Shown here: positions 2,121-4,280 of the stretch, piece by piece
Layout: each line of letters starts with the position of its first letter
Position numbering within the stretch: the stretch's first letter is position 1
Assembly: GCA_015180985.1 (NCBI GenBank)
Contig: CP054185.1
Location: forward strand, 1,419,001-1,483,000
DNA from: Flammeovirgaceae bacterium
Lineage (GTDB): Bacteria; Bacteroidota; Bacteroidia; Cytophagales; Cyclobacteriaceae
DNA length: 64,000 nucleotides
Reading direction: 5' to 3'
Notes under the pieces: generated by a model
What the model saw: only the letters and a program-made list of their open reading frames with translations
Databases searched by the model: none
What the model was told of the DNA's origin: nothing
Program-made: the position numbers and the translations under genes

Positions 2121-2191
2121 GCGGGAGTCCAGACGTTGCTGTGCAAGTCTGGATGCAGACAAGGCTTCGCCTTCGTCTGCATAGCTCAGTT
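2121..2191 (+). repeat. tRNA-Gly 5'-half fragment split by the double-hairpin element
   Basis: Positions 2121-2127 (GCGGGAG) and 2182-2191 (TAGCTCAGTT) together equal the first 17 nt of the intact tRNA-Gly that begins at 2246. The two pieces are separated by the 54-nt element at 2128-2181. After 2191 the similarity to the tRNA fades. This is a broken partial duplication, not a functional tRNA. Confidence 0.6.
2128..2181 (+). repeat. Double-hairpin element, copy 1 (54 nt)
   Basis: Starts TCC and ends GCA. Hairpin one: TCCAGAC (2128-2134) with GTCTGGA (2147-2153), with an inner TTGC/GCAA stem. One T spacer. Hairpin two: GCAGAC (2155-2160) with GTCTGC (2175-2180), with an inner AGGC/GCCT stem. 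It follows GGGAG directly and is followed by T, exactly like copy 2 at 4208-4259, and the stems of the two copies differ by compensatory base pairs. No protein is encoded. Confidence 0.65.
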
Positions 2192-2245
2192 AAAATGAGC
2201 CTCAAGATGGCAGAGAAGTTCTCTTAATAAATGAGGAGAAAACAG

Positions 2246-2318
2246 GCGGGAGTAGCTCAGTTGGTAGAGCGGCAGCCTTCCAAGCTGCAGGTCGCGGGTT
2301 CGAGCCTCGTCTCCCGCT
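2246..2318 (+). tRNA. tRNA-Gly (anticodon TCC)
   Basis: Acceptor GCGGGAG (2246-2252) pairs with CTCCCGC (2311-2317). D arm GCTCAGTTGGTAGAGC, anticodon stem GCAGC/GCTGC with loop CTTCCAA (anticodon TCC), T arm CGGGTTCGAGCC. 73 nt, no encoded CCA. Confidence 0.97.
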
Positions 2319-2330
2319 CTGAGTTCAGTT

Positions 2331-2387
2331 GTTAGTTACCGGTTGTTGGTTGTTAGAGAACAAGCGATTAACAACCAACAACTAACG
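2331..2387 (+). repeat. Imperfect inverted repeat between tRNA-Gly and tRNA-Thr
   Basis: GTTAGTT plus GGTTGTTGGTTGTT (2331-2354) faces AACAACCAACAACTAAC (2371-2387) across a short loop; the left arm has a 4-nt ACCG insertion. The arms are made of simple GTTGTTG-type sequence, as often found in intergenic DNA of this phylum. It may fold in the tRNA precursor; there is no T tract, so it is not a normal terminator. Confidence 0.5.
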
Positions 2388-2395
2388 GCCAGTAT

Positions 2396-2467
2396 GCTGT
2401 TGTAGCTCAGGGGTAGAGCACTTCCTTGGTAAGGAAGAGGTCGAGGGTTCAATTCCCTTCAACAGCT
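2396..2467 (+). tRNA. tRNA-Thr (anticodon GGT)
   Basis: Acceptor GCTGTTG (2396-2402) pairs with CAACAGC (2460-2466). Anticodon stem CTTCC/GGAAG with loop TTGGTAA (anticodon GGT). T arm GAGGGTTCAATTCCCTT. 72 nt, no encoded CCA. It lies directly upstream of tuf, the usual arrangement. Confidence 0.97.
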
Positions 2468-2538
2468 CAGGTATATGATGCATTCGGATGCCGAAGTGAA
2501 TCAAGCCGTGATTCACGTAAAAATTATTGATTGATAGT

Positions 2539-2595
2539 AAAACCATGTTATTTCCGGGTGCGTAGCGAACACCGGTAACGGAAATGTTTGGTTTT
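2539..2595 (+). promoter_or_regulatory. Structured leader of tuf
   Basis: In the 252-nt stretch between tRNA-Thr and tuf, two nested stems can form: AAAACCA (2539-2545) with TGGTTTT (2589-2595), and ATTTCCG (2550-2556) with CGGAAAT (2579-2585). A separate small hairpin lies at about 2495-2515 (GTGAATCA/TGATTCAC). No T tract follows, so it is not a terminator; a leader or RNA-processing role is inference. A possible TTTG box at 2671-2674 has no good partner at the -7 position. Confidence 0.4.
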
Positions 2596-2719
2596 CCGAA
2601 TAAACCCTTATTCGACAGGCTTACCATGTTTAGGGTGTGTGCTTCTTAATAAGTTAAGAGGTAATATTGATTTGTAACAACTTAAATTGATTTATACACT
2701 TTAAACTGGATTTTCAACA

Positions 2720-3907
2720 ATGGCTAAAGAAACATTTGATCGTTCGAAACCCCACGTAAACGTTGGTACCATCGGTCACGTTGACCACGGTAAAACAACC
2801 CTTACTGCGGCTATCACCAAAGTGCTCGCGAAGAAAGGTCTCGCTGCTGAGCGCGACTTCTCTTCTATTGACAACGCTCCCGAAGAAAAAGAGCGTGGAA
2901 TTACCATCAACACCTCACACGTTGAGTATCAGACTGAAAAGCGTCACTACGCACACGTTGACTGTCCCGGTCACGCTGACTATGTAAAGAACATGGTTAC
3001 CGGTGCCGCGCAGATGGACGGTGCCATTCTTGTAGTGGCCGCCACCGATGGTCCCATGCCTCAAACCCGCGAGCACATCCTGCTGGCCCGCCAGGTAGGT
3101 GTACCTGCCCTGGTAGTATTTATGAACAAGGTCGACCTTGTAGATGACCCTGAATTACTTGACCTGGTTGAAATGGAAGTACGCGAATTGCTTTCTTCCT
3201 ATGATTTCCCTGGCGACAAAATTCCTGTAATCCGTGGTTCGGCCCTTGGCGGACTGAATGGCGAGCCGAAGTGGGTTGAAAAAATTGAAGAACTGATGAA
3301 TGCGGTTGATGAGTACATCCCGCTGCCGGTTCGGTTGATTGACAAGGACTTCCTGATGCCGGTTGAAGACGTCTTCTCAATTACCGGTCGGGGTACGGTA
3401 GCCACCGGGCGTATTGAGCGCGGTGTTATCAAAACCGGTGATGCCGTTCAGATTCTCGGCATGGGTGCCGAAAACCTTTCGTCAGTTATTACCGGTGTGG
3501 AGATGTTCCGCAAGATTCTTGACAGAGGCGAAGCCGGTGACAACGTAGGGTTGTTGCTCCGTGGTATTGAAAAAGACCAAATCCGCAGGGGTATGGTTAT
3601 TTGCAAACCCGGTTCCGTAACTCCGCACGCTAAATTTAAAGCCGAAGTTTACGTTCTGTCTAAAGAAGAAGGCGGCCGTCATACCCCGTTCTTTAACAAG
3701 TATCGTCCGCAGTTCTATTTCCGCACTACCGATGTTACCGGTGAGATTAAACTCCCTGCCGGTGTTGAAATGGTTATGCCTGGCGATAACATTTCCATTG
3801 AGGTTGAATTGATCAACAAAATCGCTATGGAAAAGGGACTCCGTTTCGCTATCCGCGAGGGTGGTCGTACGGTAGGTTCCGGTCAGGTAACTGAAATCCT
3901 CGACTAA
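2720..3907 (+). CDS. tuf: Elongation factor Tu
   Basis: GTPase that delivers aminoacyl-tRNA to the ribosomal A site. 395 aa, full length. Visible motifs: P-loop [10 protein letters not shown] near residues 19-28, switch region [17 protein letters not shown] near 81-88, NKVD for guanine specificity near 136-139, then the two beta-barrel domains ending in [13 protein letters not shown]. The ATG at 2720 gives the standard [14 protein letters not shown] start. It sits between tRNA-Thr and tRNA-Trp rather than behind fusA, so the str operon further on lacks tuf. A strong terminator follows. Expression probably comes from the tRNA promoter at 1816 and possibly a local one. Confidence 0.99.
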
Positions 3908-3948
3908 ACAGTAAATCAACAGGTTAGCCCAATTACCAAGGGGCATGG

Positions 3949-3988
3949 AAAGGCGTTTCTGAATTTTTAAGAAGCGCCTTTGTTTTAT
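3949..3988 (+). terminator. Rho-independent terminator of tuf
   Basis: Stem AAAGGCG (3949-3955) with CGCCTTT (3975-3981), extended by TTCT/AGAA, followed by TGTTTTAT. The -33 box of the next promoter (TTTG 3979-3982) lies in its end. Confidence 0.85.
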
Positions 3989-4009
3989 ACATTACTCTTT
4001 CTACCTTTG
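3979..4009 (+). promoter_or_regulatory. Promoter of tRNA-Trp-secE-nusG-ribosomal protein operon
   Basis: TTTG at 3979-3982, 19-nt spacer, TACCTTTG at 4002-4009: full match to the Bacteroidota consensus. Predicted start near 4016, about 90 nt before tRNA-Trp. The same TACCTTTGCAG string recurs at the rpsL promoter. Confidence 0.85.
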
Positions 4010-4104
4010 CAGTCCTTTTGGGTTTCGCGAGGTTTGATGGTGTAATCTGGTGTTTCTCAAGAGGTTGTGAGTCTGCAAGCTCTGGGGTTAAAGCCGGTTT
4101 TTTT

Positions 4105-4177
4105 ACGGGTGTAGCTCAATTGGCAGAGCAGCGGTCTCCAAAACCGCAGGCTGGGAGTTCGAGTCTCTCCACCCGTG
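4105..4177 (+). tRNA. tRNA-Trp (anticodon CCA)
   Basis: Acceptor ACGGGTG (4105-4111) pairs with CACCCGT (4170-4176), discriminator G. Anticodon stem GCGGT/ACCGC with loop CTCCAAA (anticodon CCA). T arm CTGGGAGTTCGAGTCTC. The tRNA is intact, although its 3' third is repeated downstream (4201-4280). Confidence 0.97.
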
Positions 4178-4200
4178 CGAAGGTAATTCAGGTGGAAAGC

Positions 4201-4280
4201 CTGGGAGTCCTGACAAGCCGTTACAACGGTTGGTCAGGATGCTGATCGGAGCATCAGCATTCGAGTCTCTCCACCCGTGC
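4201..4280 (+). repeat. tRNA-Trp 3'-end duplication split by the double-hairpin element
   Basis: CTGGGAG (4201-4207) and the 21 nt at 4260-4280 reproduce, without mismatch, positions 4151-4178 of tRNA-Trp (T arm, acceptor strand and the next base). The 52-nt element at 4208-4259 separates the two parts. Weaker similarity continues about 20 nt beyond the tRNA end. It has no anticodon part and cannot be a tRNA by itself. Confidence 0.85.
4208..4259 (+). repeat. Double-hairpin element, copy 2 (52 nt)
   Basis: Starts TCC and ends GCA like copy 1. Hairpin one: TCCTGAC (4208-4214) with GTCAGGA (4233-4239). One T. Hairpin two: GCTGAT (4241-4246) with ATCAGC (4253-4258). The insertion point between GGGAG and TTCGAG is fixed exactly by comparison with the intact tRNA-Trp sequence at 4153-4163. 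Confidence 0.75.

Follow-up and report, generated by a model that had tools for sequence, protein, structure and literature searches.

Double hairpins inside split tRNA genes of a Flammeovirgaceae bacterium: probable copies, without the nuclease, of a selfish cassette that targets tRNA genes

Results

Two double hairpins interrupt tRNA sequence beside intact tRNA genes

The window (the whole 64,000-nt stretch of DNA analysed here) carries two copies of a double hairpin, called E below, among genes for a RecF-like protein, DciA, EF-Tu, SecE, NusG and L11. The two cassettes to which they belong contain the following features.

2121-2127, plus strand: GCGGGAG, left part of the split tRNA-Gly start, preceded by the native upstream flank (sister genome G003)
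2128-2181, plus strand: E copy 1, double hairpin (matches to covariance models R1 and R2; fold)
2182-2200, plus strand: TAGCTCAGTTAAAATGAGC, decayed D-arm fragment of tRNA-Gly, beginning TAGCTCAGTT as the intact gene does at 2253
2201-2245, plus strand: spacer of cassette 1, ending AAAACAG ahead of the rebuilt tRNA (absent from G003 and the other relatives read)
2246-2319, plus strand: intact tRNA-Gly(TCC), target of cassette 1 (comparison with the empty site)
4105-4178, plus strand: intact tRNA-Trp(CCA), target of cassette 2 (tRNA call, direct repeat)
4179-4207, plus strand: cassette 2 spacer, with the T-stem half CTGGGAG (4201-4207) at its end (compare other Trp cassettes)
4208-4259, plus strand: E copy 2, double hairpin (matches to R1 and R2; fold; empty-site comparison)
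4260-4280, plus strand: TTCGAGTCTCTCCACCCGTGC, leftover 3' fragment of tRNA-Trp (direct repeat D2)

In copy 1, TCCAGAC (2128-2134) pairs with GTCTGGA (2147-2153) to form stem one, a single T follows (2154), and GCAGAC (2155-2160) pairs with GTCTGC (2175-2180) in stem two, ahead of an A (2181). The corresponding parts of copy 2 are TCCTGAC (4208-4214) and GTCAGGA (4233-4239), the single T (4240), GCTGAT (4241-4246) and ATCAGC (4253-4258), and the A (4259). Both structures, which the earlier note had placed here, are real, their folds beating 200 of 200 dinucleotide shuffles as DNA (z -5.3 and -5.0 for copies 1 and 2) and as RNA (z -4.3 and -4.8). Rfam searches gave only tRNA matches and one sub-threshold snoU82P match away from E, and no family at E. 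The conserved self-splicing core of a group I intron was not found, with no Rfam intron family matching the window at the gathering score or 2100-4300 up to an E-value of 1. Between tRNA-Gly and tRNA-Thr lies a perfect 14-bp inverted repeat with a 13-nt gap (2342-2382).

Copy 1 interrupts the tRNA-Gly start between GCGGGAG and TAGCTCAGTT, and the intact tRNA-Gly(TCC) starts 64 bp downstream. Copy 2 separates CTGGGAG from TTCGAGTC within the T-arm of tRNA-Trp, the intact gene lying just upstream, and the last 21 nt of that gene (4158-4178) are present again at 4260-4280. When the flanks of either copy are joined, they differ from the intact target at 1 of 16 positions. In the sister genome G003 (L240), the same upstream flank is fused directly to GCGGGAGTAGCTCAG of tRNA-Gly, and the extra DNA of cassette 1 relative to this empty site is 125 bp, 2128-2252 (equally 2121-2245). 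Cassette 2 adds 102 bp to the empty tRNA-Trp site, 4158-4259 (equally 4179-4280). A whole tRNA gene remains after each of the two insertions.

Among the genomes of the genus, the tRNA-Trp locus could be read in 15 of 17, three of which are occupied (our genome, G004 and G006) and 12 of which lack E. In G004, the DNA after the intact tRNA, counted up to and including the second 3' fragment, comes to 101 bp, and the following 150 nt are identical to the empty G008 site at 146 positions. The tRNA-Gly(TCC) site is occupied in our genome only, among the genomes read; in 11 relatives (L238-L248) there is no E between tRNA-Tyr and tRNA-Gly, and R2 finds none there (L249 gave 8 nt and L250 no reading). 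One of these relatives, L248, has other hairpins between the two tRNA genes. As judged from the empty sites in sister genomes, E arrives together with a spacer and a duplicate of one tRNA end, so that the tRNA of the host is kept whole. With the rebuilt gene the target sequence is restored as well. The insertion measures 101-125 bp in the three cases measured.

E is a structured family visible to covariance models

The earlier note had suggested a covariance-model search for further copies, and this search was productive. R1 was built from 5 sequences without flanks and R2 from 30 sequences. Over the 17 genus genomes, R1 gave matches at E-values ≤ 1 in 14 and < 1e-3 in nine. R2 detects eight copies in our own genome, at tRNA-Gly, Trp, Asn, Phe and Asp, two antisense to tRNA-Leu, and one at what we take to be the 3' end of a 5S rRNA gene. 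It is only through covariance models that the family became visible: a DNA search of our genome with copy 2 matched copy 2 itself only, and exact patterns retrieved two copies there; in relatives they retrieved seven true copies and, by chance, one coding hit (L004). At the level of the bacterial family, R2 matched at an E-value ≤ 0.01 in 29 of 196 genomes, the weakest matches being chance by eye, and many E double hairpins were found by covariance model in other Bacteroidota too. Matches in 8 of 390 genomes of the order and 9 of 395 of the phylum say little about breadth, because only 15 candidates were scored per genome and chance hits are included. Weak model hits in coding sequence (e.g. 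L024, L042, L101, L109-L112) were judged by eye to be chance.

Among 24 distinct sequences from the genus, both sides have changed in 5 of the 13 base pairs. The largest comparison used alignment A10 (76 rows, 67 distinct sequences, 58 sources, E-value 1e-7), which excludes L068, L108, L119, L126, L137, L139 and L140 and retains L120 minus, read in reverse, and L038 1893, in which E is partly deleted. In its 67 distinct sequences, 96.8% of stem cells pair, both sides have changed in 8 of 13 pairs, and doubly changed cells number 86, compared with 20.6 ± 3.4 after shuffling (none of 500 shuffles reached 86), although A10 leans towards the structure because it was fitted to the model; slid controls were all far lower than the real alignment. 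Two alignments containing reverse-strand readings of the nearly symmetric E (A5 and A9) were kept out of the counts. The bases adjoining the loops (GA, TC) are nearly invariant, and those below vary with compensation. Together, these comparisons show, at the level of sequence, that the stems of E are maintained through compensatory change, in agreement with the earlier proposal of one structured family.

We compared cassettes without a nuclease that share a tRNA gene across genomes (five sets). In all 13 pairs E is more alike than the spacer, and in 10 of the 13 it is more alike than the native flank. This better preservation points to selection on E or to repeated re-invasion.

Several E copies (L048 1505-1549, L020, L033, L035 and L082) lie at what look like 5S rRNA 3' ends followed by a terminator. 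For a few plausible copies no tRNA is seen nearby; L107 (G658:C1:128881-128944, minus strand), for example, is a well-paired E-like double hairpin with no tRNA in the surrounding 3 kb. Other dispersed or tandem hairpin repeats with weak model matches are found away from tRNAs in L096, L097 and L098 (G103) and in L090 (G176). E also forms tandem arrays of two to five units (L037 1501-2173, with five at tRNA-Met; L086 40-304, with three; L087 1153-1311; L082 80-242; L088 252-391; L046 939-1087). Several arrays lie at contig ends and may break assemblies there. In L132 (2257-2354), two different E's occupy one tRNA-Lys fragment, the second within the piece after the first.

E enters tRNA genes at a few recurrent points

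E sits in what is left of a tRNA gene, or apparently of a 5S rRNA gene, with an intact gene alongside. In our flank test, E was removed, the 8+8 flanking bases were joined and the joined sequence was sought nearby with ≤ 2 mismatches. An intact match was found for 62 of 75 sites, compared with 11 of 750 random positions; these sites are the rows of A10 without L120 minus, include tandem copies and are not independent, and they represent 55 loci, of which 47 contain one or more sites that pass. Indeed, 59 of the 62 intact matches fall inside tRNAs called by ARAGORN, representing 12 amino acids, which bears out the tRNA association proposed from the two window copies. Six of the 59 tRNA-assigned sites are antisense, at tRNA-Met of G004 and tRNA-Leu of our genome. 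The commonest entry points are after nucleotides 19 (10 sites), 53/54 (14), 58-60 (13) and 7 (7), and 11 sites after 64/65 are in tRNAs with a long variable arm. Together with the empty sites, these sequence relationships show insertion with rebuilding of the tRNA at a few recurrent points.

The bases directly before E follow the target tRNA (CAGCTGG, GGTTCAA, TCGTGGG and others). The earlier note had counted GGGAG and the T after it as a fixed part of the element, and had held that hits lacking covariation or the GGGAG flank would speak against a family. Covariation is present, whereas GGGAG directly precedes E at only 13 of 75 sites. We therefore reject GGGAG as part of E: it belongs to some target tRNAs, and appears fixed in the window because both targets carry it (GCGGGAG at the tRNA-Gly 5' end, CTGGGAG in the tRNA-Trp T-stem).

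In relatives, E is linked to a small GIY-YIG nuclease gene

The DNA between the intact tRNA and E carries an open reading frame at tRNA-Phe, His, Asp, Met, Pro and further loci. All five of the encoded proteins tested match the GIY-YIG family (Pfam PF01541). The nuclease gene encodes 81-101 residues and stands just before E in many loci; its product has a confidently predicted structure (pLDDT 95.7), and the nearest solved structures, by profile and by fold, are UPF0213 and SLX1. Starting from E, a nuclease gene was found within 1 kb of 14 of 43 sites and was missing within that distance at 29, as it is at both window copies (E-first L056, L066 and L089, the same records as L113, L128 and L127, were counted as nuclease-first). 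Among open reading frames within 1 kb of 63 E sites, GIY-YIG formed the largest recurrent cluster, other large clusters looked like shadow frames or shared neighbours, and no transposase or integrase was recognised by eye among the recurrent frames.

Starting from the nuclease, a scan of public genomes found 156 relatives, 80 of which were kept, mostly from Bacteroidota. An intact same-strand tRNA lies within 600 nt upstream in 55 of the 72 loci with at least 600 nt of upstream sequence, compared with 0 of 67 control windows, the nearest distance being mostly 30-75 nt. E follows the nuclease gene in 29 of the 80 loci, compared with one hit in 1600 shuffles and none in 69 control regions, and was not detected in the other 51; these counts come from a stricter double-hairpin detector, which also listed two doubtful structures (the first in L113, and L148) and replaced a general one that called 68 of 80 loci but also 261 of 400 shuffles. 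E-bearing loci number 28 among the 36 nearest the query and one among the other 44. A phage collection yielded one nuclease record, 46% identical over 84% of the protein.

Within the genus, eight genomes have a strong nuclease match (≥ 112 bits), and all are E-positive; our genome, the ninth E-positive one, has a matching nuclease only as a truncated piece at tRNA-Phe (42 bits), along with other tRNA-linked GIY-YIG genes of ≤ 60 bits. The eight E-negative genomes reach ≤ 79 bits; G013 is among them, although a likely E appears there at an E-value of 0.02. Since all eight strong matches are at tRNA-Phe, shared descent may account for this co-occurrence. R1 found no E at the tRNA-Phe nuclease locus of G003 and G008.

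Other tRNA-adjacent GIY-YIG genes occur at L159, L174, L177, L183, L187 and, at tRNA-Ser in our own genome, L231 (C1:585474-588677). The genes at these six loci lie next to a second, imperfect tRNA copy in which a different hairpin seems to replace or split the anticodon region, and are possibly a sister system with another target point. G016 has four GIY-YIG genes in tandem, repeating every 322 bp (C1:2899238-2900425; L216, L227), downstream of a tRNA-Ser/Arg/Pro group; the model finds no E in this genome.

Discussion

The split tRNA fragments, the absence of the insertions from sister genomes and the GIY-YIG link in relatives had escaped the earlier note. UPF0213, the closest solved relative together with SLX1, is likewise a single GIY-YIG domain; SLX1, which reportedly cuts branched DNA, differs in having a second domain and a partner protein, and we know of neither as mobile or tRNA-linked. 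REP and IS200-IS605 elements are short one- or two-hairpin elements whose non-autonomous copies are spread by a distant enzyme. E differs from them in having a rebuilt tRNA end and no fixed 5' tetranucleotide, and no Y1 transposase was recognised by eye near the 63 E sites; we set this assignment aside for lack of a fixed flank, the sequence before E varying with the tRNA apart from the minority with GGGAG. Mitochondrial double-hairpin or repetitive hairpin elements, said to be mobile, resemble E in their adjacent hairpins and differ in the genomes that carry them, a likeness by description alone, and we know of no nuclease linked to them. No description of such elements in bacterial chromosomes was found in full-text searches of open-access papers, in keeping with the earlier note, which knew of no described family with this exact layout, and the passages of PMC1564403 consulted contain no such link to tRNA genes.

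The closest parallel in arrangement is SegB, a free-standing GIY-YIG homing endonuclease of T-even phages, as described in the portion of the source consulted (PMC13096335). Like the cassette nuclease, SegB is encoded in a tRNA cluster; it cuts inside tRNA genes with a preferred motif RAWTSGAAC, the complement of which resembles the T-loop GTTCGAATC, one of the cassette insertion points, and the tandem E arrays resemble the SegB-driven amplification of a tRNA region in phage T6 (PMC13096335). SegB belongs to phages, whereas the cassette is chromosomal, and that portion of the source describes no double hairpin, rebuilt tRNA end or nuclease-less derivatives (PMC13096335).

We consider, with a probability of roughly two in three, that the window elements are nuclease-less copies of a selfish cassette of Bacteroidota that resembles homing endonuclease elements and targets tRNA genes, and apparently also the 5S rRNA 3' end. 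Two features of GIY-YIG homing elements are found in the family: an encoded nuclease (5/5 proteins; 14/43 E-first sites), which the window copies lack, and coexisting occupied and empty alleles, at tRNA-Trp (3 versus 12) and tRNA-Gly(TCC). A full cassette comprises the small single-domain GIY-YIG gene, a second copy of one end of the target tRNA gene, and E, which splits the leftover tRNA fragment exactly at the target point. Presumably, the nuclease cuts the tRNA gene and repair copies the cassette in, E then interrupting, and so protecting, the cutting site in the leftover copy; the hairpins might be recognised by the nuclease or by the repair machinery, and nuclease-less copies such as those in the window could be mobilised in trans. 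The arrangement fits homing in that a nuclease is aimed at a conserved gene, the cassette lies at the target point and tandem arrays occur. Against homing stand the 29 of 43 E-first sites without a nuclease within 1 kb, the 51 of 80 nuclease loci without a detected E, and the truncated state of the only matching nuclease in our genome. Furthermore, classical homing copies a gene into the same allele, which leaves the spread to new tRNA species unexplained, and structure-specific cutting does not account for every site, since the 19/20 and 58/59 points are not helix ends. In a more speculative extension, to which we give a low probability, a minimal GIY-YIG nuclease would be led to tRNA genes by E and the adjoining tRNA-derived sequence, which might act as its nucleic-acid guide. 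The cassette could then be retargeted to new tRNA species and would represent a new class of chromosomal mobile element.

An unlikely alternative, though the strongest of those considered, is that E acts as an RNA in tRNA or nuclease transcripts, as a processing or stability element or as the RNA partner of the nuclease, its spread being secondary. The stable RNA fold, the many copies in tRNA leaders and trailers on the tRNA strand, the short distance, often tens of bases or less, from the nuclease stop codon to the start of E and the better preservation of E than of spacers would all suit such a role; however, six of 59 tRNA-assigned sites are antisense, the nuclease-less majority (29/43) needs no nuclease transcript, and the insertion always lies within a tRNA fragment, at no fixed distance from it. 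Somewhat less probable still is an independent insertion sequence or MITE, with for instance an unlinked transposase, that targets tRNA-like DNA while GIY-YIG genes are fellow travellers at hotspots. E's tracking of one nuclease group (28/36 nearest the query versus 1/44 others), the standing of GIY-YIG as the largest recurrent cluster with no transposase recognised by eye near the 63 sites, and its near absence from controls (0/69 regions, 1/1600 shuffles) weigh against this, even though most E-first sites lack a nuclease (29/43), L132 has a second E in the same fragment and 51 of 80 tRNA-linked GIY-YIG loci have no E.

That the tRNA-fragment repeats are attachment-site remnants of integrase-driven elements seems improbable. 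It is well established that tRNA genes are common integrase targets and that 3' fragments are left behind, but here the fragment itself is split by E, the three measured insertions are just 101-125 bp, sites occur in the D-arm and 5' end too, and no integrase-like recurrent frame was recognised by eye near E. Chance hairpins, for which nothing speaks beyond the abundance of hairpins near tRNA genes, are refuted by the shuffles, the covariation and the empty-site controls, and we give them practically no weight.

The rebuilt tRNA and the double hairpin set the arrangement apart from homing as known. If the cassette reading is correct, a parasite would enter essential, often single-copy genes without killing its host by bringing a copy of the part that it splits. 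Some of the small GIY-YIG genes in Bacteroidota would gain a function, and the tRNA fragments beside tRNA genes an explanation. It would also provide a simple system in which to study how a nuclease of ~85 residues finds its target without a separate DNA-binding domain, and what role a conserved double hairpin plays in DNA mobility.
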